Positions 26,196 to 44,100 of a DNA stretch of 47,963 nt are shown here, in pieces (position 1 is the first letter of the stretch; the number at the start of each line of letters is the position of its first letter). Source of the stretch: Roseibacillus ishigakijimensis (GTDB taxonomy: Bacteria; Verrucomicrobiota; Verrucomicrobiia; Verrucomicrobiales; Akkermansiaceae). Location of the stretch: NCBI RefSeq assembly GCF_016595415.1, contig NZ_JAENIO010000032.1:1-47963 (forward strand), written 5' to 3'. Made by a program: the position numbers and the translations under genes. The notes under the pieces are model-generated. The model did not search any database, had not been told where the DNA came from, and was given only the letters and a program-made list of their open reading frames with translations.

Positions 26196-27701
26196 ATGAC
26201 CCCGCGACCAGTCACTCTCCTCGCCTTTTTCGCCCTCCTCACCAGCGTTCTCCCCGCCAGCGCCTATGACAATGAAGTCTGGAAAGAAGGCGGGCAGTAT
26301 CACTGGAAAATCGACGGAAAAGAAGCCGGGCAATCCCCTGAGCTCCACCTCGCCATCAACCGTTGCCTCGCCCGGGACCGCAGCGTCCACGTCCTCACCG
26401 GGGGAGTCCTCAATGGCCCCATTTCGATTCCTTCCTGGAATGTCAAAATCAACTTTCACGGCCACGTTTTCATCCGCAATCACGGCGGCTATGGCATCGA
26501 CAATGGCTGGGACGGGCTCGTCGTGGCCAACTTCTCCCTCGTCGGCGGCACCCACATGGGCATCCGCTCCAGCCGGGGTAGCAATCTCACCTTCTGGGGC
26601 ATCAAAATCTACGGAGGCAGCATTGGCATGCGCATCGACAGCCACCCCAGCCGCCCCTACCAACGCTGGGTCCACAACTTGTCGATCTCCAATTGCCAAT
26701 TCATCAACTGCGGTGGCCACGGCCTGGAGACCTACGGCATTGACGGCATCGAGCTCCAAGGAATCGTCGCGCGCAATTGCGGGGAGTGCGGCGTGCTGCT
26801 CAATAAAACCAAGAACGGCACCATCGGCACCGTGGACGCCTACAATTGCTCCTATCGCCACGGTTACGCCGGGCTGCGCTTTGCCAACAGCTGTGAAAAC
26901 CTCCTCGCCGACACCCTCTATGCCGAACGTTGCGGACGCGGCTACTTCGTCCTCTCCGGTAGCCGCCATTGCCTGCTGCGCCGGGCCTACATCAAGGACT
27001 GCATCGACCAATGGGGCAAAGGACGCGGCATCTGGATGCAAAATGTGGCCGAGTGCGTGGTGGAGGCAGGCTGCAGCGACAGCGGCGTCTCCGCTTACGG
27101 ACCGGGCACCACAGCCACTGTCACCCAGGGGGCCTGCGAGGGCTCCCGCAGCAGCTACCCCGTCACGGTCCATGAAGAAGCCAGCTTTGGCGGCTGGTCG
27201 GCAGGACTCGCGGTAGGGGGCTACTCGCGCGAAAAGCTGGCCGCCCTCGGAGTGGAGGAGAACACCATCTCCTCCCTGCGGGTCCAACCCGGTTACCAAG
27301 TCACCGTCTACCGCCACAATTCCCCCGCCAGCCCCTCCCAATCATTCTCCACCGATGCCGACAATCTGGCCCAGACCGGCTGGGACGATCGCATCTCGGC
27401 CCTCGGCGTCCACTGGGTCGGCCCGGTGGTCCTCTACCGCGGCAAAAACTACGAGGGCTGGGCAGTGGCCTGCCCCGAAGGCGATTACGACCTCGACCAA
27501 ATGCAAGAAGCCGGCATCCAGAACGACAGCCTCTCTTCCCTTAAAATCAGCCCCGGCTACGAAGTGATCGCCTATCGCGATGAACTCGGCAGCGAGGACC
27601 ACAAGAGCTTCCGGGGCGAAGTCCCGGACCTCGCCAGCGAAGGCTGGGAGGACACCATCTCCTCCTTCCGCATCCGCCGCATCAACAAAAGCTCACCGTA
27701 G
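26196..27701 (+). CDS. Secreted right-handed beta-helix protein with C-terminal beta-gamma-crystallin motifs
   Basis: A 501-residue exported protein. Signal peptide about 1-24 (LLAFFALLTSVLPASA). Residues 45-315 show short N/G-rich rungs (ISNCQFINCGGHGLETYG, NSCENLLADTLYAERCGRG) of a parallel beta helix as in pectate lyase-like and carbohydrate-active proteins. Residues 330-497 carry four Greek-key motifs, each with a beta-gamma-crystallin-type calcium clamp: ENTISS (about 355), DDRISA (396), NDSLSS (442) and EDTISS (485). The combination suggests a calcium-stabilised, polysaccharide-facing surface protein. No catalytic residues can be assigned. ATG 26196 begins the signal peptide. Confidence 0.83.
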   Translation: MTPRPVTLLAFFALLTSVLPASAYDNEVWKEGGQYHWKIDGKEAGQSPELHLAINRCLARDRSVHVLTGGVLNGPISIPSWNVKINFHGHVFIRNHGGYGIDNGWDGLVVANFSLVGGTHMGIRSSRGSNLTFWGIKIYGGSIGMRIDSHPSRPYQRWVHNLSISNCQFINCGGHGLETYGIDGIELQGIVARNCGECGVLLNKTKNGTIGTVDAYNCSYRHGYAGLRFANSCENLLADTLYAERCGRGYFVLSGSRHCLLRRAYIKDCIDQWGKGRGIWMQNVAECVVEAGCSDSGVSAYGPGTTATVTQGACEGSRSSYPVTVHEEASFGGWSAGLAVGGYSREKLAALGVEENTISSLRVQPGYQVTVYRHNSPASPSQSFSTDADNLAQTGWDDRISALGVHWVGPVVLYRGKNYEGWAVACPEGDYDLDQMQEAGIQNDSLSSLKISPGYEVIAYRDELGSEDHKSFRGEVPDLASEGWEDTISSFRIRRINKSSP

Positions 27702-27835: not shown

Positions 27836-30325
27836 ATGAGACCCATTATCAGAACTCACCTCTCTCCCTCAACCGCGCCCCTACTGTTTCTCACTTCCAG
27901 CCTCCTCTCGACCACCGTCAGCGCGGAGTCCCTCGCCAGCGACCCCTTTCTCACCGGCGAGTCCCCGTCCACCGGGCAGTATGCCACTGCTCCCCTGACC
28001 GGACAAAACCCGGCCATTTTCGGCTTCAACAATGCCTGGGTGGGCAGTGGCACCGCCCACTCGGACACGGGCCTGAGCTACAGCGACCCCAGCTACGAAG
28101 CGGCCACCGGAGGAGCCGTCACCACCACCGCAGCAGGCCGCATCTCGCGTCAGCTCGACTCCGTGCTCAGCGACAAACTCGACATTCTTGCCGACGAGGT
28201 CGTCTACTTGAGCATTCTGGCAAACTTCTCCGGCGGAGGCGGAGCCTGGAACTACGCCGCTTTCGAACTGGGTGACGATCGCGACGACACGAAGAAAACC
28301 CTAGCCATCGGCATCGACGACGAAGCTCCAGGCGAGTTCATGTATCAGCTCAACAACGGGACGAAAACCTCTCTCGGCGTCCCCGCCGACGATGAGACCC
28401 ACCTCTTTCTCCTCAAGTTTGAGATGAACGGGGACGTCAATGGAGACGCCCTGACCATCTGGGTCGACCCAGTCCTCGGGGGCCCGGGGGATCCTGCGGA
28501 TGGGCTGGTCCTTACCGACCTCGAACTTCTCGATATCGACGACTTTCAAATCGGCTCCGGCGGACCCGGCAACAGCTTTGACGAGCTTCGCTTTGGCACC
28601 ACTCTGGCAGCGGTCACTTTGGATGAGTCCTTGGCCGCTCCCAGCTTTGGCGGCTTGCCCGATGACTACTTCGGGGACTTTGGCGACAACGTCACCCTGA
28701 CCATCCCGGTCAACGGCAAGCCAACCCCCACGCTGCAATGGCAATTTTCCAGCGATGAAGGAGCCGGAGATCCTTGGAGCGATCTCCCCGACCAAAGCCA
28801 CTCCACCCTCACCTTGGCCGATGTCCGCCAGGAAGGCTTCTACCGCTTGGTAGCCAGCAACACCCAGGGCACGGCGGAAAGTGGTTCCATCCTCATCGAC
28901 CTCGCCTATCCCTCGCCGACCGTCACCGTGCCCGCCGCCGTGGCAGGCCTCCTCGGCGAAGAGCTGACCATCCCTGCCAACGCCAGCGGACTAGGCTCCC
29001 TCTCCTATTCCTGGTATCGGCTGGAAGACGGGATCGAAGTGGAACTGGGACAAACGGGCTCTACCCTGACCTTCCCCTCCCTGAGTGCTTCCGACCTCGG
29101 AACCTATTTCGTAAAAGTCACCGACGACGGCAGCGGAGTCACCCCCCACGAATTGCCAGCCGAAACCTACTCGGCGGACATTCTGGTCGTGGAGGGCGGC
29201 CAACCTGCCTACGAGCCCTTCTTGATCGGCGAAGACCCCGATGCAGGCCAATACCTCGTGCAATCTTTCTCGGGACAAGGGCCGGACGTTCTCGGCTTCT
29301 TCGATGTCTGGGGCGGCGGTGGGGCCCTGCCGACCGCAGCGGCAGGCTCTCTCAGCTACTCTGACCCCAACTACGCTTCCCCGGCCGGGGGCTCCCTCCT
29401 CACCGGACAAGGAGGCCGCATTTACCGCCCTCTCTCCCCTTCCCTCTCCGGCCTCATGGGGGCCGGCGCCGAGGGAACCATTTACCTGAGCATTCTTGCC
29501 AACTTCAGCGGTGGACTCGGCACTTGGGGCTACGCGGCCTTCGAGCTGGGCCAAGATGGCTCCGACCCCCAAAAGTCCCTGGCCATCGGCATTGATAGCA
29601 GCATCCCGGACAACTTCATGTATCAAATCAACAATGGCACGAAGATGGATTTGGGGATCGCCGCCGATAGCGCGACCCATCTCTTCCTGCTCAAGCTAGA
29701 CCTTCGGGCGAGCGATCCCGACACCCTCACCGTCTGGGTCGACCCCGTGCTAGGTGGCGGAGGCGATCCCGCCGACGGCATCGTTCTCACTGGCTTCGAC
29801 CTCTTGCCGATCGAAGACTTCCAAGTCGGCTCCGGAGCAGCCGGCAACCAGTTCGATGAAGTCCGCATCGCCCCCACCTTAGCCGAAGTGACCAGCCTCT
29901 ATCTGGGACCGGAGGGAGAGACCTTTGCTTCCTGGATGACTGGCTTCCCCGGCGTGGGCAGCGAGACCGCCTTTTCCGATGATGCCGATCAAGATGGACT
30001 CGCCAATGGACTGGAAGCCTTTCTCGGCACCGATCCCAGCGAGCCCAACGACAGCCTGGAGGCCGTGATGATAACAGAGGCCGGGCTGACCTTCCAGCAC
30101 CCGCGCACAGCCACCGTCCTCCTCGACGTGCAAGCCAGCTACCAATGGTCCTCTGACCTGCAAAACTGGTTTGCCAGCGGGGAGGAAAGCGAGGGCTCCG
30201 CCGTCACCTTCCAAACCCTGGCCAACACTCCCGCAACCGGGACCAGCAGCATAACCGCAGAAGTCACAGGGGTGCCTCTTGACAAGGTTTTTGTCCGCCT
30301 CCAAGTGCAACAAACCGGAAACTAA
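27836..30325 (+). CDS. Secreted modular protein: two copies of a shared module, Ig-like domains, TSP3-like C terminus
   Basis: An 829-residue exported protein (signal peptide ending TTVSAES). A module of about 230 residues occurs at 31-265 (DPFLTGESPSTGQY to FDELRFGT) and again at 460-690 (EPFLIGEDPDAGQY to FDEVRIAPTLAEV), each with Y-L-S-I-L-A-N-F-S-G, FMYQxNNGTK and LTVWVDPVLGG blocks. Two Ig-like domains lie between (W-Q-F and YSWYRLEDG cores). The C terminus has the calcium-loop motif DDADQDGLANGLEAFLGTDP, then an YQWSSDLQNW domain common in Verrucomicrobiota surface proteins. The same module recurs in the 276-aa and 1388-aa proteins downstream. Likely surface or matrix protein; the module looks like a concanavalin-type beta sandwich. 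Confidence 0.82.
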   Translation: MRPIIRTHLSPSTAPLLFLTSSLLSTTVSAESLASDPFLTGESPSTGQYATAPLTGQNPAIFGFNNAWVGSGTAHSDTGLSYSDPSYEAATGGAVTTTAAGRISRQLDSVLSDKLDILADEVVYLSILANFSGGGGAWNYAAFELGDDRDDTKKTLAIGIDDEAPGEFMYQLNNGTKTSLGVPADDETHLFLLKFEMNGDVNGDALTIWVDPVLGGPGDPADGLVLTDLELLDIDDFQIGSGGPGNSFDELRFGTTLAAVTLDESLAAPSFGGLPDDYFGDFGDNVTLTIPVNGKPTPTLQWQFSSDEGAGDPWSDLPDQSHSTLTLADVRQEGFYRLVASNTQGTAESGSILIDLAYPSPTVTVPAAVAGLLGEELTIPANASGLGSLSYSWYRLEDGIEVELGQTGSTLTFPSLSASDLGTYFVKVTDDGSGVTPHELPAETYSADILVVEGGQPAYEPFLIGEDPDAGQYLVQSFSGQGPDVLGFFDVWGGGGALPTAAAGSLSYSDPNYASPAGGSLLTGQGGRIYRPLSPSLSGLMGAGAEGTIYLSILANFSGGLGTWGYAAFELGQDGSDPQKSLAIGIDSSIPDNFMYQINNGTKMDLGIAADSATHLFLLKLDLRASDPDTLTVWVDPVLGGGGDPADGIVLTGFDLLPIEDFQVGSGAAGNQFDEVRIAPTLAEVTSLYLGPEGETFASWMTGFPGVGSETAFSDDADQDGLANGLEAFLGTDPSEPNDSLEAVMITEAGLTFQHPRTATVLLDVQASYQWSSDLQNWFASGEESEGSAVTFQTLANTPATGTSSITAEVTGVPLDKVFVRLQVQQTGN

Positions 30326-30533
30326 TACCACCTCAAGTCTTCATCTGGTAAAATGAGGGGACCTTTTTGCTGAGAAAATGCGCTACGCGGTCGGCCTCAT
30401 CTTTTTGGGTTCAGGATTCCAAATTATTCGTTGCCAATCGGTTGCGACTCCGACATCACGCCATCTTCCCGCCTTAAACTTGGAACCCTGAACCTCGATC
30501 CTTTTACCAGCTAAATCCTTTCATTGGTATAAG
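30322..30533. repeat. Nested imperfect inverted repeat (about 210 bp), candidate MITE-like element
   Basis: Three sets of complementary arms nest inside one another: the ends (CTAATACCA at 30322 against the complement of TTGGTATAAG near 30524-30533), CTGGTAAAA (30345-30353) against TTTTACCAG (30502-30510), and GGTTCAGGATTCCAA (30408-30422) against TTGGAACCCTGAACC (30480-30494, one mismatch). An extra local stem ATGAGG/CCTCAT (30354 and 30395) sits on one side. No protein is encoded. The left end overlaps the stop codon of the upstream gene. Confidence 0.6.
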
Positions 30534-30550
30534 AACAAGCCTTACCCCGG

Positions 30551-30596
30551 AAAAGCGCCTGGAATGTTTGATAGGTTTATCCAGGCGCTTTTTTCC
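30551..30596 (+). terminator. Rho-independent terminator
   Basis: A 13-bp perfect stem (AAAAGCGCCTGGA / TCCAGGCGCTTTT) with a 16-base loop, then more T. A run of A on the left would allow it to act in both directions. With the inverted-repeat element it fills the 335-base gap between the modular protein and the sigma factor gene. Confidence 0.88.
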
Positions 30597-30660
30597 CTTT
30601 TCGTCGCTCTCAACTTATCTCTCGACACTCTCACCCTGTTTTGCCTAGAAAAGGGTTCCC

Positions 30661-31227
30661 TTGAGTAACCTTGATCGACTCCTCTCTCATGCGAGCCAGG
30701 GCGGGGCAGCCCTTTCGGCCGAACTGCTCCCTCTCGTCTACGACGAGTTACGCCATCTTGCCGCCCGCCGCCTCTCTGGCAATCGCGCCGTCACGCTGCA
30801 AGCCACCGAACTGGTGCATGAAGCCTGGGTCAAGCTAAGCAGTGCCGATCTCCCCCTCTGGAACGACCGGGCCCACTTCTTCCGGGCCGCCGCGCTAGCC
30901 ATGCGTCGCATCATCGTCGACCGGGCGCGCGAAAAAGCTGCTCTCAAACGGGGTCAGGGACAAGTCCCCCTCGACCTCAGCACGCTCGACATCGCCGCCG
31001 TCACTCCCGACGAACGCGTTCTCATGGTCGACGACGCCCTCACCCGATTGGAAAAAGAAAGCCCGGAAAGCGCCCGCCTCATCACCCTCAAGTTCTTTGG
31101 CGGCTTGACCAATGAAGAGCTCGCCGACAGCGAGGGGGTCGCCGAGCGCACCATCCGCCGCCGCTGGGACTTCGCCAAAGCCCGCCTCTACCACCTGCTC
31201 AGCGAAACTCCGCCCCCCGCCCCGTGA
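30661..31227 (+). CDS. ECF-type RNA polymerase sigma factor (TIGR02999-like)
   Basis: A 188-residue sigma factor. Region 2 shows LVYDELRHLAARRLSGNRA and ATELVHEAWVKL; then NDRAHFFRAAALAMRRIIVD REKAALKRG; region 4 shows LTNEELADSEGVAERTIRRRW. This pattern is the TIGR02999 group, in which sigma factors are typically encoded beside large Ser/Thr kinases and may be controlled by phosphorylation rather than by a classical anti-sigma factor. TTG 30661 is the start; its stop TGA overlaps the GTG start of the kinase gene (GTGA), so the two are translationally coupled. No anti-sigma gene is visible. Target promoters unknown; neighbouring surface genes are plausible. Confidence 0.92.
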   Translation: MSNLDRLLSHASQGGAALSAELLPLVYDELRHLAARRLSGNRAVTLQATELVHEAWVKLSSADLPLWNDRAHFFRAAALAMRRIIVDRAREKAALKRGQGQVPLDLSTLDIAAVTPDERVLMVDDALTRLEKESPESARLITLKFFGGLTNEELADSEGVAERTIRRRWDFAKARLYHLLSETPPPAP

Positions 31228-33434
31228 GCGACGAGATCGAGATGATTCTCTTTGAGGCGGCTGCGGCCCTGCCTGATGAAACGGACCGCCGCCTCTTCCT
31301 GGCCCACACCTGCCAAGATAATCCCGGGCGCCTGCGCCTCCTCGAAAGCCTGTTGGCCAAAAGAAAGGAAGCCGAAGATTTCTTTTCCTTCCAAGCTTCG
31401 CCCCCATCCCCCACAGCACGGAACGCTGCCCCCCTTGGCGAAGAAACCCTCGCAACCCACATCGGTCGCTACCGCCTCGTCGAGCGTCTTGGCTCCGGCG
31501 GCTACGGCACAGTCTACCTCGCCGAGCAAATCGAACCCCTGCAACGCAAGGTCGCCCTGAAAATCATCCGCTTGGGAATGGATACCGAACGGATGATTGC
31601 CCGCTTCAAGATGGAACGACAGGCCCTCGCCCGCATGGAGCATCCCCACATCGCCCGGGTCTTCGACGCCGGCACGACCCACTCCGGGCGCCCCTATTTC
31701 GTGATGGAATTGGTCGACGGAGAAAAGGTGACCTCCTTCTGCGATCGCGAAAAGCTGACTCTGGGAGAAAGGCTGGAGCTTTTCATCCAAATTTGCCGCG
31801 CCATCCAGCATGCCCACCAAAAGGGAGTCATCCACCGCGACATCAAACCCTCCAATATCTTGGTGCGTCGTCAGCAAGCCGGCACCCTCTTGCCCAAAGT
31901 CATCGACTTCGGTATCGCCAAAGCCGCCCATGGGACCAACGAGCAAACCCTCACTCTGGAGAATCCAGGCCAACTGCTCGGCACGCCCACCTACATGAGC
32001 CCGGAGCAAGCAAGCGGCAGCCGGGATATCGATACCCGGAGCGATATCTATAGCCTCGGAGTTCTCCTCTTCGAAATGCTGGTCGGGCAACCTCCCTTCG
32101 ACTTTTCCTCCCCGGAGAACTGCAATGTGGAAGAGGTGCGCGCCATCCTCCGCAAGAGCGACCCTCCCAAACCCGCCACCCTCCTCGCCGCCCTGCCTTC
32201 GGAACGCCTCGCCGAACTCGCTGCTCTGCGTGGCACGACCGGCCGCCAGCTCATGGCCCGGGTGCAGGGGGACTTGAGCTGGATTCTGCTCAAAGCCTTG
32301 GAAAAAGATCGCAGTCGCCGCTATGAAACCGCCAATGGCCTGGCGAGCGACATCCAACGCCATCTCCAGGGCGAGCCCGTCTCGGCCGGCCCTCCCGGAC
32401 GCCGCTACCGCCTCGGTAAACTCATCCAGCGCAACCGGATGACCTTTCTCTCCGGCGGCCTCCTCCTCTTCGCGCTCCTCGCCGGGCTGGGCACCTCATC
32501 CTGGATGTTTCTCAGCGAGCGCGAAGCTCGGCAGGAACAAAGCCGCCTGCGCAAAATCGCCGAAGAGGCCCGTCGCCTCGCCAGTCAAGCACTCGCCAAC
32601 GAAATGGTTTTGCGCCGTCAGGCCGAGCATCGCGACCTTGTGGCCCAGGCGGCTTTCCAGCTCTCGCTGGGGGAGAGAAGCAAGGCTGAATCCCTTCTCA
32701 GTCGCATCCCCCTGGCGGAAATCCCCCCCTCCCTGGAGGCCGCCAACACCTATCGCACGCTAGGAGAGTGGCACTTCAACGAAGCCCGCTGGAAAGAGGC
32801 TGCCAAATCCTTCGCCGGGCTCGCCCGCACCCTCAGCGACATCAACCCCGCCGACTCCGAACAAATCTCCCGCCACCTTCTACCAGCAGCGGCCGCTCTC
32901 TGCTCAACCGGAGCCGATGCCGAATACGAAGTGTTTCGTGAAATGGCCGTGGCTCGCTTTGGCGATAGCGCCGATGTCCACGTTGCCGAGCAAGTCCTCA
33001 AGGCCACTCTCCTGCGCCCAGCCAACGAAAGACTCCTCGCGGCCATCACTCCCCTGGCGAATCTGGTGGAAAACCACCTGCGCACCGAGGCCCCCTCTCC
33101 CGAAAATTCGGAAATCTATGCCTGGCGCCACCTCTCGCTCTGCTTGCACTCCTACCGTCGGGATCAACCCGCCGATGCCGCCGCCTGGGGCCGGGAAGGA
33201 TTGCGCTTCGCCGGCGAAAAGACCTCGCGCGATGCCAGCCTCCACTTCCTCCTCGCCATGACCGCCAGCCGTTCCGGTCAAAGCGCCGAGGCCCGCTCCC
33301 ACTTTCAGGAAGGACGACGGCTGATTGCGAAGGAATCCACCACCGAAACCATGACCAACAACGCTGACGGCTATTGGTTCGACTGGATCAACGCCAGTCT
33401 TCTTCGGGAAGAAGCTGCCGCCCTCCTCCCCTGA
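31224..33434 (+). CDS. Transmembrane Ser/Thr protein kinase partnered with the ECF sigma factor
   Basis: A 736-residue Hanks-type kinase. Residues 1-60 are the short helical N terminus usual in these sigma-linked kinases. The kinase domain (about 83-375) has GSGGYGTVY, VALKIIRLG, the catalytic loop HRDIKPSN (about 204), DFGIAK (about 228) and GTPTYMSPEQA, so it should be active. A membrane helix (about 410-428, FLSGGLLLFALLAGLGTSS) is followed by an extracytoplasmic or helical repeat region (TPR-like, with LGEWHFNEARWKEAAKSFAG). Coupled by GTGA overlap to the sigma gene. A terminator follows within 20 bases. It likely senses an outside or envelope signal and controls the sigma factor; this is inference. 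Confidence 0.92.
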   Translation: MSDEIEMILFEAAAALPDETDRRLFLAHTCQDNPGRLRLLESLLAKRKEAEDFFSFQASPPSPTARNAAPLGEETLATHIGRYRLVERLGSGGYGTVYLAEQIEPLQRKVALKIIRLGMDTERMIARFKMERQALARMEHPHIARVFDAGTTHSGRPYFVMELVDGEKVTSFCDREKLTLGERLELFIQICRAIQHAHQKGVIHRDIKPSNILVRRQQAGTLLPKVIDFGIAKAAHGTNEQTLTLENPGQLLGTPTYMSPEQASGSRDIDTRSDIYSLGVLLFEMLVGQPPFDFSSPENCNVEEVRAILRKSDPPKPATLLAALPSERLAELAALRGTTGRQLMARVQGDLSWILLKALEKDRSRRYETANGLASDIQRHLQGEPVSAGPPGRRYRLGKLIQRNRMTFLSGGLLLFALLAGLGTSSWMFLSEREARQEQSRLRKIAEEARRLASQALANEMVLRRQAEHRDLVAQAAFQLSLGERSKAESLLSRIPLAEIPPSLEAANTYRTLGEWHFNEARWKEAAKSFAGLARTLSDINPADSEQISRHLLPAAAALCSTGADAEYEVFREMAVARFGDSADVHVAEQVLKATLLRPANERLLAAITPLANLVENHLRTEAPSPENSEIYAWRHLSLCLHSYRRDQPADAAAWGREGLRFAGEKTSRDASLHFLLAMTASRSGQSAEARSHFQEGRRLIAKESTTETMTNNADGYWFDWINASLLREEAAALLP

Positions 33435-33450
33435 ATTCACGCGAGCAAAG

Positions 33451-33495
33451 AAAAAAGGAAAATTCAAGCCCCCTACCAAGGATTTTTCCTTTTTT
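33451..33495 (+). terminator. Terminator after the kinase gene
   Basis: AAAAAAGGAAAA (33451-33462) pairs with TTTTCCTTTTTT (33484-33495) around a 21-base loop. The stem is mostly A-T, so it may be moderate in strength, but its position, 16 bases after the stop, supports the call. Confidence 0.7.
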
Positions 33496-33575
33496 GTCCG
33501 TTTCCGCGCCCCAATTCCGTTTGTTGGGAAGATGGCAAGCTGTTTCACGCTCGCCTCACCTTCAATCAGAAACCT

Positions 33576-34406
33576 ATGAAAAGACAAATCCTTGATCGCA
33601 GCCTTGGCCTCGGAGCGCTCCTGACCCTGCTGGCCCCCTCCGCGCAAGCAGCCCTGCTGGCCAATGACTCCATCCTCACCGGTAGCAACCCCGCCGCTGG
33701 CGAATATGACTCGACCTCTGCCATTGGTGGACAGAATCCAGAGGGCCTCGGCTACAACAGCGCCTGGTCTGGCTCCAGTGGAGCCATCGTCTCCGGCCTG
33801 AGCTACAGCGGAAGCGGCTACTCCGGGGAGGAAGGGAGCGCACTCCAGACCACCAGCGCTACCCGCTTTGGCCGGAATATGGATACCGACCTGGCCAACG
33901 CCTTCGCGGGCACGGGCACCATCTATCTGAGCTTCCTCGCCAGCTTTGACGGCAGTTTCTCTTCCTGGGCTGGTTACGCCGCGTTCGAAGTCGGAGGAAC
34001 CGATTATAACGACCCCAACAAGGCCCTCGCCATCGGCGTGGACGGCGGCGGCTTGGCTGGGAACTTCATGTATCAGGTCAATAACGGCACCAAGACCTCG
34101 ACGGCGATTCCCTCGGACACCAACGTCCACCACTTTCTGGTCCGTTTCGATATGGATGCAGCGGGCACCGACGATTTAACCCTCTGGATCGATCCCGTCC
34201 TCACTGGAGCCAGCGATCCCGCAGGCGGTATTTCGGTAACCGGTGAGGAGCTGTCCATTGACAACATTCGCCTCGGAGCAGGCGGAGCCGGTCTCACCGT
34301 GGATGAGATCCGCTTCGGCACCGACTTGGCCTCCGTGGTGCCCGAACCCTCGACAGCTCTGCTCAGCCTCCTCGGCGTCCTCGGGCTCATCCGCCGCCGT
34401 CGCTAG
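33576..34406 (+). CDS. PEP-CTERM sorted secreted protein made of one shared module
   Basis: A 276-residue exported protein. Signal peptide about 1-25 (LGALLTLLAPSAQAA). Residues 27-250 are one copy of the module found twice in the 829-aa protein: NDSILTGSNPAAGEY, IYLSFLASFDG, FMYQVNNGTKTST, LTLWIDPVLTG, VDEIRFGTDLASV. It ends with the PEP-CTERM signal: VPEPS, a hydrophobic stretch (TALLSLLGVLGLI) and RRRR, which exosortase cuts during export to the surface or exopolysaccharide matrix. The exosortase gene is not in this window. It lies just behind the sigma/kinase pair, with its own terminator. Confidence 0.9.
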   Translation: MKRQILDRSLGLGALLTLLAPSAQAALLANDSILTGSNPAAGEYDSTSAIGGQNPEGLGYNSAWSGSSGAIVSGLSYSGSGYSGEEGSALQTTSATRFGRNMDTDLANAFAGTGTIYLSFLASFDGSFSSWAGYAAFEVGGTDYNDPNKALAIGVDGGGLAGNFMYQVNNGTKTSTAIPSDTNVHHFLVRFDMDAAGTDDLTLWIDPVLTGASDPAGGISVTGEELSIDNIRLGAGGAGLTVDEIRFGTDLASVVPEPSTALLSLLGVLGLIRRRR

Positions 34407-34464
34407 TGCCATCTCTCGTTCTCGTTGACCTCCTTTCCGCAAACACAATCCCATAACCAACCAC

Positions 34465-34499
34465 GCCGGGCGGGCTTTCGCTAGCTCGCCCGGCCTTTT
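34465..34499 (+). terminator. Terminator after the PEP-CTERM gene
   Basis: GCCGGGCG (34465-34472) pairs perfectly with CGCCCGGC (34487-34494) around a 14-base loop and is followed by CTTTT. It ends 5 bases before the next start codon. Confidence 0.85.
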
Positions 34500-34504
34500 G
34501 CCAC

Positions 34505-37500
34505 ATGAGTCTTCACCGCACCCTGCTCGCCGCGCTTCTCATCTTCGTCGGCCCGACCTCGCTCTCCGGTGAGGACTTGACCGAGGGGCTCACCTTCCGC
34601 CTCTACGACATTCGCGAGGAGATGGACCAGCTCTATCCCCTCGTGCCCGGCCAGACCCCCAATGTGGACGAAAAGCGAGACACCATTGATTGGTCCGGAA
34701 GCGGGGACTTTGCCGATTTCTCCACCGAATTCATCGTCACGGCCACCGCCAGGCTCTCCATCCCCACCTCGGGAAGCTACCACTTCCGCCTCACTTCCGA
34801 CGACGGGGCCGAACTCTGGCTCGCGGAGGAACTCGTCATCGACCATGATGGCGTGCATGCCGCCACCTCTAAAATCGCGACCGTGACTTTGCCCGAAGGC
34901 TCCCAACCACTGGAAGTCCGCTACTTTCAGAACGCCGGTGAGATGAGCCTGAAGCTGGAATGGCGCAAGCCGGGCGACGAGACCTTCGCCCTCATCCCTG
35001 CCACCCAATACCTGACCCCTTCCTTCGTCACCCGGGTCGTCGCTCCGGGCAAAAAAGAAATCATCACTCCCGGCGATGGCACCCGCCCGGGGAAGGGCGC
35101 GCCTCTGGCCTCCGTCCATCCCGAGTGGGAGGTCCAGTCCATTCGGCCCGCTTCCTTCCAGCCCCAGGTCGGCGCTCTCGCGGTTCATCCCGATGGCCGC
35201 CTCTTTGTCGCGACCTTCGAGCCCAATCAATTCAATTCCTCCGCCCAACCCAGCTCGCCCAATGGCAGCATCTGGGCCCTGAGCAATACCCTCGGCGACA
35301 ACCCGGAGGCCGTGGAAGTGAACGAGGTCGCCTCCGGGCTCTTCGAACCCGCCGGAATGACTTTCCACAAGGGCGAACTCTACGTCAGCCAACGGCTCGC
35401 TCTCACCCGCCTGCGGGACAACGATGGCGACGGCTTTTACGAGAGCCACGAAACAGTCAGTAGCGGCTGGGACTCGGACAACTATCACCACTTCCACTTC
35501 GGGCTCATCACCAAGGACGACTACGCCTACACCACCCTGTCCACCAGCATTGATTTCAACTCCACCGGGCTCAATGGGCCCAATCCACCCTATCGCGGGA
35601 CCTGGCTGCGCACCAACCTGGTGACCGGAGCCAAGGACTACCTCGCTGGTGGCCTGCGCACCCCCAATGGCCTGGGCTTCGGCCCCGGAGGCGATATCTT
35701 CCAGACCGATAACCAGGGCTCCTGGCTCCCCGCCTCACGCCTCAACCACCTCCGCCCGGGACGATTCTACGGGCACTACAATTCCACTGCGCGGGGTGGC
35801 TCACCCAGCCTCTTTGCCGAGGAAGATCCCTCACCCGCCGCCATTTATTTTCCCCAAAACGAGATCGCCAACTCGCCCACCCAGCCCCTGCTCATCCCGG
35901 AGGGACAGGATTTCGCCGGCGATATGCTTGTGGGCGAACTGACCCTAGGCGGGATCCGCCGAGTCTCTTTGGAAAAAGTCGCGGGCCAGTGGCAAGGGGC
36001 CGTCTACCGATTCACGCAGGGCTTCGAAGGCGGCGTCAACCGGCTCGCCTGGGCCCCTGATGGCTCGCTCTACGTGGGCTGCATGGGGTCCTCCGGCAAT
36101 TGGTCTTGGAACGGCACCACCCATGGCCTCCAACGCCTGCGGCCCCGGGAAGACGCGACAGAGCTCTTCGAGATCGATCGCGTGGAGGCCACTCCGGAAG
36201 GATTTCGTTTGCGATACACCAAACCCGTCCCCACCGCCGTGCTCGCCGACCCGGCAAACTTTGCCGGGCAACACTGGACCTACGCCCCCAGCGCCAGCTA
36301 CGGCGGCGCGAAAGTCAATCAACGCCCCCTTACCATCACCGCAGCCACTCCTGCCGCCGATGGCAAAAGCGTGGTCTTGACCATTCCCGACCGGCAGGCC
36401 GGCTACGTGGTCCACTTGCAATCCGACCTCCTCTCCACGGAAGGGGAAGCCATCTGGTCCAGCGAAGCCTGGTATACCCTCAATCACATCCCCGGCGCCG
36501 ATATCGAGCTCCACTTTGCCAGCGCCAGTCTCTTTGAAAATCAGCCTGCCGGGAGCCTGGCTGGGACCATCGAGGCCCAAGAAAAGGATCTTCATACTCC
36601 CCTCACCCTCTCCCTACCGCCCGGGCAAGCCCACAACGCGGAGTTCACCCTGGAGGGCAACACCCTCCGCACCCGGCGGGCCTTCGACCACGAAGTGAGT
36701 CCCACTCTCTCTGTCGTCATCCGGGCGGCCACCCCCCATGGGGCCTTTGTCGAAGACACCTTTGCCATCACCATTCAGGACCAGCAAGCAGAGCATAGCC
36801 CCCACCGCCTGCTGCTCTCCAATGCCGTCCTGCCACCACAAAACGAGGCCGGCACCCGGGTGGGCCGCCTTCTCTTCGACGACCTCGACGCCGGGGACCT
36901 GACGCCCGGCCCCGGGGTGAACCCGGCCGGAGATGCCCCCGTCTACGAAGGCTTCGCGTCCCCCGCAAACCTGGCTCTCTCCGGACTCAATGGCGGCTCC
37001 GGCTTTGACGGCCCCTGGAGCAGCAGTGGAAACGGAGCCACCCTGTCCTCCGGTTCCCTGAGCTACCGCGACCGCCACGGCTTGTCGCTGGCGACCAGCG
37101 GACAATTTGCCCGGAGCTCAGCCAGCTCCCGGAATCACCGCCCCCTGGCGCGCCGCTGGGGGCAGGAAAACGAGGTGACCTACCTCAGCTTCCTGGCTGC
37201 CCCCGGGAGCAACAGCTTCTTCTGGGGCATCGAACTCTGGGACGGCGCGGCCCAGGACTCCCAGCGCGTTCTCCAAGTCGGCAACGAGAGCGGCTTCGGC
37301 GTGCGGGTGCGCAATGGCACCAACAAACTCTTTCCGACCAACGACAACGAGAGCCACTTCTATGTCATCCGCATCGACCACCTCCCAGGCAATGACGAGG
37401 TCTCGGTCTGGCTCGATCCCCCTTTGCCTGCCGAACCAGCCAGCCCGGACCTCTTCTTCAACGGCTCCGAAACCGGGGGCAACCTCTCTTTCAACCGACT

Positions 37501-38671
37501 GGGATTCAGCGACTACCTCGCGAACTCCTTGCCCGCTGTCGACGAACTGCGCATCGGTCTGGATTGGACCACGGTGACCCCCACCTCTTCTCGCGGGCCC
37601 CTCTTTGAACGAGTCTCCGGCGAAGGAGACGCGGACAACGAATCCTTTGAAATCATTGCCGACCAACTTTACACCACCCAGCCCCTTCCCGAAGGCTTGC
37701 ACCGCCTGCGGGTGCGCCTCACCGACAGTGCGGGAAACAGCTACCAGCAACCCCTAGTCGTCTGGGTTGGCACAGGCCATCTGGATAGCAACAACGACGG
37801 CATTCGCGATGGCGATGCAGCCCGCCTCGGCAGCCATCCACTCGACGACCTGACCCCGGGGGCCTATTTCGGAGGGAAAGAAGGGGAGCCCGCCCTCTCT
37901 TGGCAAGGCGAGGGGGAGAGCTTCCTCCTCCAGTCCCCTCTCTTGCCCGGCCATCACTACTGGCTCGAGTGGTCACCCAATCTGGAGCACTGGCAGCCAC
38001 TTCCGGAAAGCTTCGCCTCCCCGGAGGACTTTCGGTCCCTCCCCTCCACCTGGCAGATTCGCCCCCCCTCCGAACCGCGTCGCTTCTGGCGCCTGGCCGG
38101 TGGCTGGCCGGAGAACCCCGCCGCCACCCCCCTCGCCCACGGTCTTGCCAACCTCACCTTCGTAGGCGGGGACTCCCAGGGCTGGCACTACGAGGAAGCC
38201 ACCGGCATCCTCAGCCAGAGATCCACGGACCCCAATCCCGCCGAATGGCTGCATTTCGGCGCCACCGTAGACGACTTTCTCCTCAACCTCGAGTTTCGCC
38301 TCACGACCAACACCAATTCCGGAGTCTTTCTCCGCGCGGCCGACAGCGGAGCCCCTTGGGAAACCGGGATTGAAATCCAGCTGACCCACGAGCCGCGCGA
38401 GCCCATCCATGCCACCGGCGCGGCCTACGGGCGCATCCCCGCCAATCCAGCAGTCGACAACAGCGCCGACCGCTGGCACCGGCTCGAGATCCTCCTCCGC
38501 GACCAGCACCTGAAGGTCACCATCGACGGTGTCACCTGCCTCGACGAACCCGACCTCCCCCAGACCTACCCCGATTTCTCTTGGCCCACCTCCGGCTTTA
38601 TCGGTCTTCAAGACAGCCACAACGCCAGCGGAACCATCGAGTTCCGCAACATCCGCCTTCTCTCCTTTTAG
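34505..38671 (+). CDS. Giant secreted protein: PA14, glucose dehydrogenase-like propeller, shared module, DUF1080
   Basis: A 1388-residue exported protein. Order: signal peptide (about 1-22); PA14 domain (25-165; SGSYHFRLTSDDGAELWL); a six-bladed propeller like soluble glucose/sorbosone dehydrogenases (about 215-560; ALAVHPDGRLFVATFE, GLRTPNGLGFGPGG, RLAWAPDGSLYVG); beta-sandwich and cadherin-like stretches (560-800); a divergent copy of the module seen in the two upstream proteins (812-1028; YRDRHGLSLATSGQF, VSVWLDPPLP); a calcium-loop segment LDSNNDGIRDGDAA (about 1092); and a C-terminal DUF1080/3-keto-disaccharide hydrolase-type domain (1209-1388; NTNSGVFLRAADSG, GFIGLQDSHN). Such proteins are typical of polysaccharide-degrading Verrucomicrobiota. 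Exact substrate unknown. Confidence 0.88.
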   Translation: MSLHRTLLAALLIFVGPTSLSGEDLTEGLTFRLYDIREEMDQLYPLVPGQTPNVDEKRDTIDWSGSGDFADFSTEFIVTATARLSIPTSGSYHFRLTSDDGAELWLAEELVIDHDGVHAATSKIATVTLPEGSQPLEVRYFQNAGEMSLKLEWRKPGDETFALIPATQYLTPSFVTRVVAPGKKEIITPGDGTRPGKGAPLASVHPEWEVQSIRPASFQPQVGALAVHPDGRLFVATFEPNQFNSSAQPSSPNGSIWALSNTLGDNPEAVEVNEVASGLFEPAGMTFHKGELYVSQRLALTRLRDNDGDGFYESHETVSSGWDSDNYHHFHFGLITKDDYAYTTLSTSIDFNSTGLNGPNPPYRGTWLRTNLVTGAKDYLAGGLRTPNGLGFGPGGDIFQTDNQGSWLPASRLNHLRPGRFYGHYNSTARGGSPSLFAEEDPSPAAIYFPQNEIANSPTQPLLIPEGQDFAGDMLVGELTLGGIRRVSLEKVAGQWQGAVYRFTQGFEGGVNRLAWAPDGSLYVGCMGSSGNWSWNGTTHGLQRLRPREDATELFEIDRVEATPEGFRLRYTKPVPTAVLADPANFAGQHWTYAPSASYGGAKVNQRPLTITAATPAADGKSVVLTIPDRQAGYVVHLQSDLLSTEGEAIWSSEAWYTLNHIPGADIELHFASASLFENQPAGSLAGTIEAQEKDLHTPLTLSLPPGQAHNAEFTLEGNTLRTRRAFDHEVSPTLSVVIRAATPHGAFVEDTFAITIQDQQAEHSPHRLLLSNAVLPPQNEAGTRVGRLLFDDLDAGDLTPGPGVNPAGDAPVYEGFASPANLALSGLNGGSGFDGPWSSSGNGATLSSGSLSYRDRHGLSLATSGQFARSSASSRNHRPLARRWGQENEVTYLSFLAAPGSNSFFWGIELWDGAAQDSQRVLQVGNESGFGVRVRNGTNKLFPTNDNESHFYVIRIDHLPGNDEVSVWLDPPLPAEPASPDLFFNGSETGGNLSFNRLGFSDYLANSLPAVDELRIGLDWTTVTPTSSRGPLFERVSGEGDADNESFEIIADQLYTTQPLPEGLHRLRVRLTDSAGNSYQQPLVVWVGTGHLDSNNDGIRDGDAARLGSHPLDDLTPGAYFGGKEGEPALSWQGEGESFLLQSPLLPGHHYWLEWSPNLEHWQPLPESFASPEDFRSLPSTWQIRPPSEPRRFWRLAGGWPENPAATPLAHGLANLTFVGGDSQGWHYEEATGILSQRSTDPNPAEWLHFGATVDDFLLNLEFRLTTNTNSGVFLRAADSGAPWETGIEIQLTHEPREPIHATGAAYGRIPANPAVDNSADRWHRLEILLRDQHLKVTIDGVTCLDEPDLPQTYPDFSWPTSGFIGLQDSHNASGTIEFRNIRLLSF

Positions 38672-38814: not shown

Positions 38815-39507
38815 ATGCCGCACACCTACGACTACCCCCGCCCCGCGCTCACCACGGATTGCGTGGTCTTCGGGCTGGATGACGATGATGTCAAAGTCCT
38901 CCTCATCAAACGCGGACTCGCGCCCTTTAAGGACAAATGGGCTTTGCCCGGAGGATTCCTCCGCCCCGAGGAAGACCCCAATGCCTGCGCTCGCCGCGAG
39001 CTCGCCGAGGAGACCGGCCTGAGCGGAATCTATCTCGAGCAACTCTCCACCTTTGGCGACCCCAAGCGCGACCCGCGCGAGCATGTCGTCACCATCGCCT
39101 ACTTCGCCCTCGTCAACCTCCTCGAGCACCCGCCCACTGCCGACACCGACGCCAGCGACGCCGCGTGGTTCCCCTTCGACGAGATCCCTCCCCTCGCCTT
39201 CGACCACGCGGATATTCTCCAGACCGCGCTCCAGCGCCTCCGAGCCAAGATTCGCTACAGCCCCGTTGCCTTCGAGCTGCTCCCCGACCGCTTCACCCTC
39301 CCTGAAGCCCAGCACCTCTTCGAGCGGGTGCTCGATACCACCCTCGACAAGCGCAACTTCCGCAAAAAACTCCTCAAGCTCGGCATCCTCCTCGAGACCG
39401 ATGAAGTCCAACAAGACGCCGCCCGCCGGGCCGCCCGCCTCTATCAATTCGACCGCTCCTCCTATGACGACCTCCTCTCGACCAACCCCGACCTCACATT
39501 GCTATGA
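38815..39507 (+). CDS. NrtR-type Nudix/winged-helix protein (ADP-ribose-responsive regulator or ADP-ribose hydrolase)
   Basis: A 230-residue protein with an N-terminal Nudix domain (about 10-145) and a C-terminal winged helix (about 155-230; FELLPDRFTLPEAQHLFERV, KRNFRKKLLKLGIL), the architecture of NrtR, which represses NAD-metabolism genes and releases DNA on binding ADP-ribose or related nucleotides. The Nudix box is complete (G47-x5-E53-x7-REL61-63-x-EE65-66-TGL), so it may also hydrolyse ADP-ribose; many NrtR proteins have a degenerate box. Its stop overlaps the next start (ATGA, 39504-39507). No NAD-synthesis gene is nearby; instead the neighbours are ADP-ribosylation genes. The operator just upstream suggests autoregulation. 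Confidence 0.88.
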   Translation: MPHTYDYPRPALTTDCVVFGLDDDDVKVLLIKRGLAPFKDKWALPGGFLRPEEDPNACARRELAEETGLSGIYLEQLSTFGDPKRDPREHVVTIAYFALVNLLEHPPTADTDASDAAWFPFDEIPPLAFDHADILQTALQRLRAKIRYSPVAFELLPDRFTLPEAQHLFERVLDTTLDKRNFRKKLLKLGILLETDEVQQDAARRAARLYQFDRSSYDDLLSTNPDLTLL

Positions 39508-40001: not shown

Positions 40002-41105
40002 ATGACCACTGAAGAACATCTTCACGGCCTCCTTCTCGGCACTGCGATTGGGGACTCTGTTGGATTGCCAGCAGAAGGCCTCTCTCCCCGCGCCATCGCC
40101 AAGCTAGGGTGGGACAAGACGTGGAAACAGCGCTTCTTTCTGGGTCGAGGCATGTGGAGCGACGATACGGAGCACACTATCATTCTGACTCAGGCTCTGC
40201 TTGCGTCCGACGCTGATCCCAAGGCATTCCAAAAACGCCTCGCCCGCGACCTCCGTTTTTGGCTAGCCATGCTCCCGGCGGGAGTTGGGCTCGCGACCGC
40301 GCGTTCGATCTTCAAACTCTGGCTTGGAATCTCACCCGACCGTTCAGGAGTTTTCTCTGCAGGCAATGGCCCGATGATGCGTGCCGCACCAATCGGATGC
40401 CTCTTCTCTGGGAGCAACAAAGACCGCCTCATCTATAATCGTCACCAAACCCGCATTACCCATTCCGACCCAAAAGCCGAGCACTGCGCACGAGCCATTG
40501 TCGAATTGACTGCGTTGTTTTGTCAGTCAAATGAAGCCCCCTCTCAAGAGAAGTTGTTCGACACTCTTCTAGCGCCAGAATCATCAGATGAGTTCCGGGA
40601 GTTGATAAACTGCGTTCGCAACAACTTGGCAGCTGGCGAAGACCTTGACGCTTTACTTTCGATGATTGGCGCTCGCCCGAAAAAAGGCGTTTCCGGCTAC
40701 TGCTTCCACACTCTAGCCGCTGTTCTTCACTGTGGTATTCGCCACCAGTGGAAACCCGAGCAGGCTCTCCCCGCCATTTGGTCAGCGGGTGGAGATACTG
40801 ATACCAGCGGAGCCATTCTGGGGGCACTTTGCGGCACTCTCCATGGAGCCTCGTCTTTTCCTGAAAATTGGTTAGCCGCCATTGCGGAATGGCCCCTTAC
40901 ACCTTCAAGTCTCAGCCGCTTGGCTGACTCCGTGGCTGCCCCAGAGCCCCTCACGATTCGCCCTCTCTTCCATCCTGCCCTTCTCTTTCGTAACTTTATT
41001 TTCCTACTCATCGTCCTTAGCCACGGATTCCGCCGCCTCCTTCCAATTCTCGGGAAATCCGAGCTCTCTGCCTCAGCGACGCGAACCCTCCCCTCCCCCG
41101 ATTGA
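40002..41105 (+). CDS. ADP-ribosylglycohydrolase family protein (DraG/ARH type)
   Basis: A 367-residue enzyme that would cut ADP-ribose from modified proteins or small molecules. The binuclear Mg site residues are visible in GTAIGDSVG near the N terminus, MWSDDTEHT (about 46-54) and SAGGDTDTSGAILGALCG (about 262-279), all intact. A hydrophobic segment and basic end (LLFRNFIFLLIVLSHGFRRLLP, split across about 325-347) recalls the C terminus of one bacterial ARH subgroup and may attach the protein to the membrane. Its DNA is AT-richer than the left neighbours. It lies 114 bases after the ART-like gene, with no terminator between, so they could be co-transcribed. The product ADP-ribose is the likely ligand of the Nudix protein. 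Confidence 0.9.
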   Translation: MTTEEHLHGLLLGTAIGDSVGLPAEGLSPRAIAKLGWDKTWKQRFFLGRGMWSDDTEHTIILTQALLASDADPKAFQKRLARDLRFWLAMLPAGVGLATARSIFKLWLGISPDRSGVFSAGNGPMMRAAPIGCLFSGSNKDRLIYNRHQTRITHSDPKAEHCARAIVELTALFCQSNEAPSQEKLFDTLLAPESSDEFRELINCVRNNLAAGEDLDALLSMIGARPKKGVSGYCFHTLAAVLHCGIRHQWKPEQALPAIWSAGGDTDTSGAILGALCGTLHGASSFPENWLAAIAEWPLTPSSLSRLADSVAAPEPLTIRPLFHPALLFRNFIFLLIVLSHGFRRLLPILGKSELSASATRTLPSPD

Positions 41106-41182
41106 GGGATTTGCGCAGGCCAAGAAAGAACGGAAGCGGTTCGTTGCAGCAGCGACTCCTCCCGTTCCTTAGGCTCCTGACG

Positions 41183-44100
41183 ATGAAACTATTCCCTCTT
41201 TTACTGCTCGCCTGCGGGCTCTTGCTGCCCCAGCTGTCCGCCCAAAGGCTGATGGAAGACCTCGACCGGGGCACGGTGGCAGTGGCAAGCGAGGGCGGGG
41301 TCTTTCTTAGCTGGCGCCTCCTGGCCACCGAGCCAGCGGAGACCAGTTATCACGTCTATCGCGATCGCCAACGGGTTACGGAAACCCCCATCAGTGGGGC
41401 GACCAATTGGTTTGATAGCGAGGGAAATACCGCGAGCAGCTACCGCATTGCGGCGGTCATTGAGGGAAAAGAGCAAACCCTCTCCCCACCCGTCACGGTT
41501 TGGAATGGAAACTACTTGGAAGTGCCCTTGGATCGCCCGGCCGGAGGCACCACCCCTGACGGAGATTACGACTATAGCCCCGGTGACCTCAGCGTGGGCG
41601 ACCTCGATGGCGATGGCCAGTATGAGCTGGTGTTGAAGTGGAACCCTTCCAACGCCAAGGACAATTCCCACTCCGGCTACACGGGTCGGGTTTTTCTCGA
41701 TGCCTATGAACTCGATGGCACCCGGCTGTGGCGAATCGACCTCGGGCCCAACATTCGGGCCGGAGAGCATTACACCCAGTTCATGGTCTACGACCTCGAT
41801 AATGACGGCCGGGCGGAGGTGGTTTGCAAGACGGCCGATGGCACCACCGATGGCCGGGGACAAGTGCTCGGCGACAGCGCCGCCGATTGGCGCAACGGCA
41901 GCGGCTACATCCTCTACGGGCCGGAATATCTCAGTGCTTTTGATGGCCAGACCGGGGGCTTCATCGATACCGTAGACTACCTCCCCGCGCGGGGTTCGGT
42001 CTCCAGTTGGGGCGATAGTTACGGCAATCGCGTGGACCGCTTCCTGGCTTGTGTAGCCTACCTCGATGGGCGCAATGCCAGTGTGGTGATGTGCCGGGGC
42101 TACTACACTCGCAGTGTCCTCGCCGCTTGGGATCTGGTCGATGGCGAGCTCCACTTGCGCTGGATCTTCGATAGCAACGATGCCGGCAATTCCAGCTACG
42201 CCGGGCAGGGCAACCACAACCTCAGCGTAGCCGATGTCGATGGCGACGGGCGCGACGAAATCATCTATGGCTCCTGCACCATCGACGATGACGGCACGGG
42301 CCTTTACTCCACCGGGCTCGGTCATGGCGATGCCCTGCATGTCTCCGACATGGACCCAACCCGGCCGGGGCTGGAGGTCTGGATGCCGCACGAGACCTCG
42401 GCCAGCGGCTCCACCTATCGCGATGCGGCCACCGGAGAAATCATCTGGGAGCACGATAACGGTGGCGACGTGGGACGCGGAGTGGCCGCCCACATCGACG
42501 CCCGCTACCCCGGCTACCAATTCTGGTCCTACGCCCAGGGTGGCGTCTACAACACCGCCAACGAGCAGATCAGCGACCGCTCCTCCGGCACCATGATGGC
42601 CTTTGTCGTCTGGTGGACGGACAGCTTGCAGCGGGAATTCCTCGCCTCCGCCGGGGGCTCGGGAGGCAATCCCATCCTCGAACGTTGGACCGGCGACGGC
42701 CCCGCCCGCCTCTGGAGCATTTACAACGAAGGCGGTTCCTACGACACCCGCAGCATCAATGGCACTAAGGCCAATCCCTGCCTCTCGGGTGACATTCTCG
42801 GTGATTGGCGGGAAGAAATGATCTTTCACTCCAGCGACAATCGCAAGCTCCGCATCTTCACCACCACCGCGCTGACCAACCACCGCATCCCCACCCTGAT
42901 GCACGATGCGCAATATCGCTTGGCGATGGCTTGGCAGAATGTGAGCTACAACCAGCCGCCCCACCCCAGCTTCTACCTGGGAGCCGGAATGGAGACCCCG
43001 CCCCATCCCGACATCCGCCCGGCCAATCGCGGCAGCGCGGCCGAGTATCTGGAATCCAACGGCCTTCTCTCCTTGGAAGCGGAAGAGGGCGACCTCGGGG
43101 CCCGCTGGGTGACGGGAGCCTCCCCGGCTGCATCGCGCAAAGCCTTCCTGGAAATTTACCCCGATTTCGACCACGTCGGCTCCACTCCGGCGGGAGAAAC
43201 TTCCCCCTATCTCGCCCGCTATCCCTTCCACCTCTCCACCCCCGGCGCCTACCGCTTCTGGTTTCGTATGCTCTCCACCACCACCGAGGACGACTCCTTT
43301 TTCTGGCGCATCGATGGCGGTCCCTGGAATTTGGAAAACAATCGCCAGAACGGCTGGTTCTCTCGTGAGGTTGCCGAGCTGACTGAGCTGGCCACTGGCT
43401 CCCATGTGCTGGAGATTGCCGGTCGCGAGAATGGCACCCGGCTCGACAAATTCGTCCTTCAGCAAGAGGGCCATCCCGACCCGAGCGGAACCGGACCAGC
43501 GGAGAGCCCCCGCCGCGACGAACGGGCCCCCACCGCTCCCCTCTGGCTGACTGGCAGCCCCTCCGCTCGCTCGGTGCACTTGTCCTGGCTCAACAACCGC
43601 GAGGCCGATTTTGCAAGCTATACGGTCTATCGTTCATTGGCTGCCCACGAGCCCGGCACGGCCATCGCCACCCATCTCACCAGCGAGAGCTTCCACGATG
43701 CCGACCTCCTGCCGGGGCTGACCTACTACTATTCCGTCAAGGCCACCGACACGAGCGGCAATCTCTCCCCCGCCAGCCTCACCATTCCCGTGGCCGTGGT
43801 GGAAGAGCGCCGGGAAGAAAATGGCATTCTCGCGTTGGAGGCGGAAAACGGCGGACTCGGCGCTCACTGGCTCGTGGTCAGTGATCCTATTGCCTCACAA
43901 GGCAGCTACCTTACCATCGACCCCGCCCACAACGCCATGAGCGAGCTCCCGGCAGAGGAAGGCGACGCCTTCCTCGCCCGCTACCCCTTCCAAGTCACCA
44001 GTCCCGGCGACTACCGCTTCTGGTTCCGCATCCTCTCTGACAATGGCAGCGACGACTCCTTCTTCTGGCGCCTCGATGGGGGCGAGTGGGTCTTGGAAAA

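Follow-up and report, generated by a model that had tools for sequence, protein, structure and literature searches.

Introduction

The described systems closest to the protein module reported here are CBM66 and other CBMs of the concanavalin A (ConA) fold, the lectin domains of sialidases and trans-sialidases, the LamG/Laminin_G domains and, at the level of the whole protein, the surface proteins of the PEP-CTERM/exosortase system. CBM66 is reported to bind the terminal fructoside residue of fructans, and the same report describes DUF1080 and CBM66 predictions overlapping on one domain and proposes DUF1080 proteins as xanthan-degrading enzymes (PMC5673643); DUF1080 proteins have also been proposed to be 3-keto-glycoside hydrolases (PMC9007349). 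Among PEP-CTERM proteins, paralogous expansion within lineages has been described (PMC1569441).

The DNA analyzed here is a stretch of 47,963 nucleotides from Roseibacillus ishigakijimensis of the phylum Verrucomicrobiota (contig NZ_JAENIO010000032.1), referred to as the window. In it, a module of about 220 residues occurs four times across three neighboring secreted proteins (BLASTP): twice in an 829-aa protein, once in a 276-aa PEP-CTERM protein and once, in divergent form, in a 1388-aa protein. The 276-aa protein resembles the PEP-CTERM/exosortase surface proteins in its tail and in having an exosortase in the genome; among the three window proteins, it alone bears the tail. The module is probably a carbohydrate-binding domain not yet catalogued, with a predicted ConA-like jelly roll; it is spread through the phylum and would work as an add-on to other proteins.

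Results

Module copies and the genes that carry them

The features of the locus, with coordinates on the window and the basis of each assignment, are as follows.

27836..30325, + strand: 829-aa secreted protein, a module on either side of two Ig domains, followed by a TSP3-like stretch (by eye) and a C-terminal region (ORF; Pfam Ig_3/I-set/ig; profile match)
27929..28615, + strand: module copy 1, in the 829-aa protein (BLASTP, whole-genome search, profile match)
28640..28885, + strand: first Ig-like domain of the 829-aa protein (best I-set stretch, whole-protein E 2.7e-9)
28946..29137, + strand: second Ig-like domain of the 829-aa protein (best PF00047 stretch, whole-protein E 1.2e-5, alone not significant)
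29201..29890, + strand: module copy 2, in the 829-aa protein (BLASTP, whole-genome search, profile match)
30661..31227, + strand: ECF sigma factor, X6 subfamily (TIGR02999, 178.9 bits, cut-off 126.15)
31224..33434, + strand: serine/threonine protein kinase (Pkinase, E 6.5e-47)
33576..34406, + strand: 276-aa PEP-CTERM protein with one module (ORF; Pfam)
33654..34340, + strand: module copy 3, in the PEP-CTERM protein (BLASTP, whole-genome search, structure model)
34338..34403, + strand: PEP-CTERM sorting signal (PF07589, 21.1 bits, cut-off 20.7, E 3e-4)
34505..38671, + strand: 1388-aa protein with PA14, DUF7133/GSDH-like propeller, cadherin-like 1, cadherin-like 2 split by the module, and DUF1080 (Pfam)
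36797..36898, + strand: cadherin-like 2, first half, ending at a DxDAGD motif (sequence comparison)
36932..37576, + strand: module copy 4, divergent, in the 1388-aa protein (BLASTP, whole-genome search, profile match)
37601..37777, + strand: cadherin-like 2, second half (sequence comparison)
38165..38659, + strand: DUF1080/3-keto-disaccharide hydrolase domain (PF06439, E 1.7e-27)

Each of the four copies is 215–230 residues long. In BLASTP comparisons among the three proteins, the PEP-CTERM copy matches the two 829-aa copies at 45 and 42% identity (E 8e-56 and 3e-47) and the 1388-aa copy at 31% (E 4e-10). As a query against the whole genome (4.14 Mb, 192 contigs), it retrieves the remaining window copies with E-values of 2e-54, 6e-47, and 2e-8, scores that as sequence similarities are far beyond chance, together with one match on contig C109 (E 2e-7). 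These searches bear out the four copies in three proteins reported in the initial annotation. The blocks it listed as common to them (YLSxLAxF, FMYQxNNGTK and W-x-DPVL) are real in the three close copies, as YLS[IF]LA, FMYQ[LIV]NNGT and W[VI]DPVL, and altered in the 1388-aa copy, where the counterparts read YLSFLA, FGVRVRNGT and WLDPPL. Of the alignment positions occupied in 80% or more of 55 copies, eight are near-invariant, with one residue in at least 50 copies (F33, Y44, W64, S119, P207, D243, R246, and V254 in the numbering of the PEP-CTERM protein).

The initial annotation had placed the copies in three anchoring contexts, of which PEP-CTERM and DUF1080 are confirmed by Pfam; for the 829-aa protein, what it called a calcium-loop C terminus corresponds to a D-rich, TSP3-like stretch recognised by eye, on which Pfam calls no TSP3 at E ≤ 0.1. 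It did not mention the Ig domains between the two 829-aa copies, where Ig_3 of Pfam has two significant stretches, or the apparent cadherin-like nesting of the 1388-aa copy, a protein whose cadherin match is below the Pfam cut-off. The tail of the 276-aa protein also matches TIGR02595 (19.4 bits, cut-off 16), and the genome has one exosortase match (PF09721, 107.6 bits, E 9e-31, at G000:C181); the protein thus has both marks of PEP-CTERM sorting, a C-terminal signal (just above cut-off) and an exosortase in the genome.

The sigma factor and kinase genes sit between the module genes. Just upstream of the locus (26196–27701) is a right-handed beta-helix protein with a beta/gamma-crystallin domain, and directly after the 1388-aa gene (38815–39507) is a NUDIX protein with an NrtR/AraR-type winged helix, which could be a sugar- or NAD-related regulator. 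Farther downstream, 2.4 kb beyond the module genes, is a rhamnogalacturonan lyase of family 11 (41102–44509; RGL11_C, E 1e-229), which may hint that pectin is a target. By eye, a similar C-terminal stretch (e.g., KLFARLRV, KVFVRLQV) ends the window 829-aa protein and several module proteins of loci L039–L046; Pfam gives it no name in the three proteins scanned (829-aa, L041, L042).

Family searches and predicted fold

Profiles of the module, whose construction the initial annotation had suggested, were built and searched. Over 25 members, there was no credible match in Pfam (three families, one member each, best E 0.11, chance-like) or in NCBIfam (four families, one member each, best E 0.069, chance-like); PF06439 (DUF1080) gave no Pfam match to the module over the same 25 members, and PDB sequences gave none at E ≤ 1. 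No description of the module was found in the titles and abstract openings of the openly licensed literature searched.

A structure was predicted with AlphaFold2 from the four window copies and one relative from another genome (L048, see below), and the model is a beta sandwich, mostly of strands (pTM 0.70, mean pLDDT 64.4, with residues 1–31 and 51–59 below 50). Of the 32 PDB matches that Foldseek gave at E ≤ 0.001, a sialic-acid-binding domain from a sialidase ranks first (1.5e-5). The best VIA-align 2 match is a lectin-like domain from a trans-sialidase (Z 12.5, 175 residues aligned, 12% identity), with CBM66 at Z 12.4 over 149 residues (11% identity; tied within 1 Z unit with other ConA-fold chains) and peanut lectin at Z 11.8 over 168 residues. 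Among the 50 VIA-align 2 entries listed, Z ranges from 11.3 to 12.5 over 149–182 residues, and since rows within one Z unit are tied, the fold can be named but not the family. These VIA-align and Foldseek neighbors are ConA-like jelly rolls. The module is accordingly predicted, with moderate confidence, to belong to the concanavalin A-like jelly-roll superfamily. The structure prediction that had been proposed together with a ConA/LamG-like guess therefore upholds that guess at the level of predicted fold (AlphaFold2, Foldseek, VIA-align), with no LamG match by sequence.

Compared with the described systems, the module shares with CBM66 and other ConA-fold CBMs the predicted jelly roll and its place as an add-on to polysaccharide-active enzymes, but it is 11% identical to CBM66 and has no sequence-level family match to it. 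The sialidase and trans-sialidase lectin domains give the best structural scores (Z 12.5 in VIA-align, E 1.5e-5 in Foldseek), but identity is 12% and Pfam finds no sialidase domain in the window proteins. LamG/Laminin_G domains are of the same general fold class, and the module has a conserved DE-R-G motif near its C terminus that resembles that of Laminin_G_3, but at E ≤ 1 the LamG and Laminin_G models of Pfam match 0 of the 25 members. The module probably represents an uncatalogued, CBM-like domain family of the ConA fold, its kind known and the family unnamed in the libraries searched.

Distribution in the genome and the phylum

A five-row profile found the module at six places in its own genome, to which a script run on the C109 stretch added a seventh. 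The genome-wide count, also suggested at the outset, rests on a 25-row profile and gives nine copies at E ≤ 1: the four of the window, three on contig C109 and two on contig C33 that are weak (E 1.8e-6 and 0.003). The C109 copies belong to a paralogous set with the module in each protein (802 aa; a 304-aa PEP-CTERM protein; a 1459-aa PA14-DUF7133-cadherin-DUF1080 protein), and another genome of the genus (G001) has the same three-gene set (801, 323, and 1441 aa). Both sets adjoin a LuxR-type response regulator and a HisKA_3 kinase, not a sigma factor and a Ser/Thr kinase.

Among other genomes, the five-row profile matched 15 of 58 at E ≤ 0.001, its own genome counted. The 25-row profile matched 55 of 288 genomes of the phylum at E ≤ 1e-5 (54 of the 251 more complete ones), 4 of the 55 (G000, G001, G009, and G021) having supplied rows to that profile; the richest has at least 11 module matches, and since no more than ten candidates were scored per genome, copy numbers may be low. 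Searched singly against the genome collection, the PEP-CTERM copy found one relative (L048, in a Kiritimatiellae MAG), and plasmid records held no match to it at E ≤ 1e-3. In three same-genus genomes, all draft assemblies, the left flank gene of the locus is present in two and the right flank gene in all three, and in both draft genomes with the pair the two genes are on different contigs; relatives of the window kinase occur in two of the three (best 47% identity).

A locus-specific module, as the initial annotation proposed, is rejected by the 55 matching phylum genomes and by the second three-gene set, on C109 in the same genome. The annotation had also named what would speak against its reading, a well-described family equally common throughout the genome; what was found is a module without a Pfam or NCBIfam name, in nine copies at three places.

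A probable nesting of the module in a cadherin-like domain

In the 1388-aa protein and its two paralogues, the order is cadherin-like 1, the start of cadherin-like 2 as far as a DxDxGD motif, the module, and then the remainder of cadherin-like 2. When the module is cut out and the two parts of each second domain are joined, a profile of the three matches the intact first domains across 83 columns (E 1.3e-8, one comparison); when it is retained, the match is confined to the back half (5e-5, 52 columns). Taken separately, the back half scores 7.9e-7 across 47 columns and the front half only 0.03 across 28, in the expected register; a swapped control scores 2.4e-6 on the 47 columns matched by the back half. 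The back half therefore supplies most of the signal, to which joining adds an in-register front half. The Cadherin model of Pfam spans almost the entire joined domain in two of the three proteins, with weak E-values (0.049 and 0.041), and does not do so in the one swapped control, and the back halves weakly match Ig-like models as well (Big_13, He_PIG). From these sequence comparisons, the module very probably splits a cadherin- or Ig-like domain, at the slot it also occupies in the two paralogues. A structure model of the nested arrangement (436 residues; pLDDT 45.4, pTM 0.41) is uninformative.

The next relatives of the 1388-aa body, from G009 and G027 (1159 and 1152 aa, 43–44% identity), lack both the module and the cadherin-like domains in alignment, and thus offer no control with an uninterrupted slot. 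The G027 relative (L080), which was the one scanned with Pfam, has a CBM6/CBM35 match between propeller and DUF1080. An ECF sigma factor, a Ser/Thr kinase and a relative of the 1388-aa body occur together at L079 (G009) and at L080 (G027), so the association of these three is not confined to the window.

Evolutionary history of the copies

In both trees (25 and 55 modules), the PEP-CTERM copy joins the two 829-aa copies in a clade with support of 100/99, within which the latter two are sisters (100/97), and local duplication of these three is supported by the trees. In the C109 and G001 sets, the large-enzyme modules and those from the 800-aa protein group with modules of G004 (98/98 in the 25-module tree, 100/97 in the 55-module tree), and the PEP-CTERM modules fall elsewhere. 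AU tests reject a single clade of the PEP-CTERM copies from the window, C109 and G001 (p 0.00096) and a grouping of the 829-aa copies with those of the 802- and 801-aa proteins (p 4e-8). The trees and AU tests together indicate that local duplication does not hold for every member of a set. A clade of only the 1459-aa and 802-aa modules of C109 and the 1441-aa and 801-aa modules of G001 is rejected as well (AU p 0.012), the G004 modules (L047) falling inside it.

The local duplication proposed in the initial annotation therefore stands for the two 829-aa copies and the PEP-CTERM copy. The 1388-aa copy is on a long branch with no supported place in the trees; its identity to 17 other members is 24–35%, and its grouping with the remaining copies of the window survives the AU test (p 0.21). 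A single clade of the three modules from the shared slot is weakly rejected (AU p 0.033), a test in which the long branch is involved. Against its C109 paralogue, the 1388-aa protein retains 57% identity in the propeller, 52% in PA14 and 41% in DUF1080, and 25% in the module (28% in a second alignment). Measured against the cadherin-like parts, this drop is large (z 4.8 and 5.4); against DUF1080 it is not significant (z 1.2), so saturation of the sequences is possible, and the comparisons are suggestive only of a replaced slot module as against saturated divergence.

Discussion

What the module does

A carbohydrate-active catalytic domain is found by Pfam in 8 of 23 module proteins, a raw count without a background rate, in a sample where nine proteins were hand-picked (most for their length) and three of the eight enzymes are interrelated. 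DUF1080 occurs in three related module enzymes (window, L037, and L038); other partners are a sulfatase (L089), a polysaccharide lyase with CBM96 (L095), a SASA acetylesterase (L091), a BD-FAE esterase (L093) and GH20, as a partial catalytic match (L102). The remaining scanned proteins have beta-helix, peptidase S15/GDSL, FecR, Ig, PATR, TSP3 or PEP-CTERM regions or nothing known. A PEP tail is present in the last 32 residues of 10 of the 46 module proteins in the fetched loci, with two more by-eye variants, and in the PEP-CTERM proteins (about 270–340 residues) the module is nearly the whole protein. The FecR-type protein at L045 (8516–10066), which has the module at its C terminus, is not an enzyme fusion and is perhaps a sensor version of the domain.

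From the predicted fold, the fused domains, the PEP tails, the CBM6/CBM35 match between propeller and DUF1080 in the module-free L080 protein and the proposals for DUF1080, we infer that a carbohydrate-binding role is favored, and it is the glycan-related side of the earlier adhesive or glycan-binding suggestion that the fused domains support. A PEP-CTERM protein that consists of signal peptide, lone module and tail would be a surface-held lectin, and a module fused to a hydrolase or esterase would keep the enzyme on its polysaccharide. The 829-aa, PEP-CTERM and 1388-aa proteins would bind a related polysaccharide outside the cell, for which the ECF sigma factor and kinase encoded between the module genes would be a likely switch. 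Against this role, the confidence of the model is moderate and no sequence match ties the module to a named ConA-like or CBM family; moreover, the ConA fold also serves protein binding and catalysis, and one fusion is of FecR type (L045).

A more elaborate version, which we hold to be unlikely, treats the modules as exchangeable specificity cassettes: the anchored lectin, the additional module protein and the PA14-propeller-DUF1080 enzyme of each locus would have modules matched to one glycan (or to one another), and when a locus takes up a new target, the cassette at the fixed slot within the cadherin-like domain of the enzyme would be replaced rather than simply diverge.

The module might instead be a domain for protein–protein adhesion, homotypic or scaffolding, through which the copies on the anchored PEP-CTERM protein, the 829-aa protein and the enzyme would attach to one another and keep the three assembled at the surface. 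Indeed, the copies of the PEP-CTERM and 829-aa proteins are closer to one another than to their positional counterparts at the paralogous locus, and the partner domains include Ig, cadherin-like and TSP3-type ones, but local duplication alone explains the similarity. Furthermore, the 1388-aa copy is not specially close to its neighbors (28–29% identity), the C109 PEP-CTERM module has no close kinship with the two modules encoded alongside it, and the enzyme fusions at L089, L093, L094, and L102 have no second module protein in the stretch fetched; adhesion of this kind is accordingly rated as improbable.

A catalytic role for the module itself, as a hydrolase or lyase of the ConA fold such as a divergent DUF1080, is quite improbable. 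ConA-fold enzymes (glucuronan lyase, GH131, alginate lyase) are among its structural neighbors, and the reported overlap of DUF1080 and CBM66 predictions on one domain (PMC5673643) would fit, but hhalign gives the module against DUF1080 probabilities of 0.2 and 0.1%, by which a divergent DUF1080 is rejected (window copies against PEP-CTERM copies of other genera reach 99.9%), and no paired-acid pattern is seen among the eight near-invariant columns. A structural spacer with no ligand would be expected to diverge as fast as these modules do (19–35% identity between most members compared), but where the module is nearly the whole of a PEP-CTERM protein it cannot be only a spacer, which makes this account very unlikely.

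Implications

The carbohydrate-binding domain proposed here is present in about a fifth of the sampled genomes of the phylum, on polysaccharide-active enzymes and PEP-CTERM surface proteins, and is without a Pfam or NCBIfam model. Its likely nesting in a cadherin-like domain makes the large enzymes a test case for the replacement of a domain in a fixed slot. Naming the module would annotate proteins that are now hypothetical and would give a direct route to asking what such surface proteins bind.
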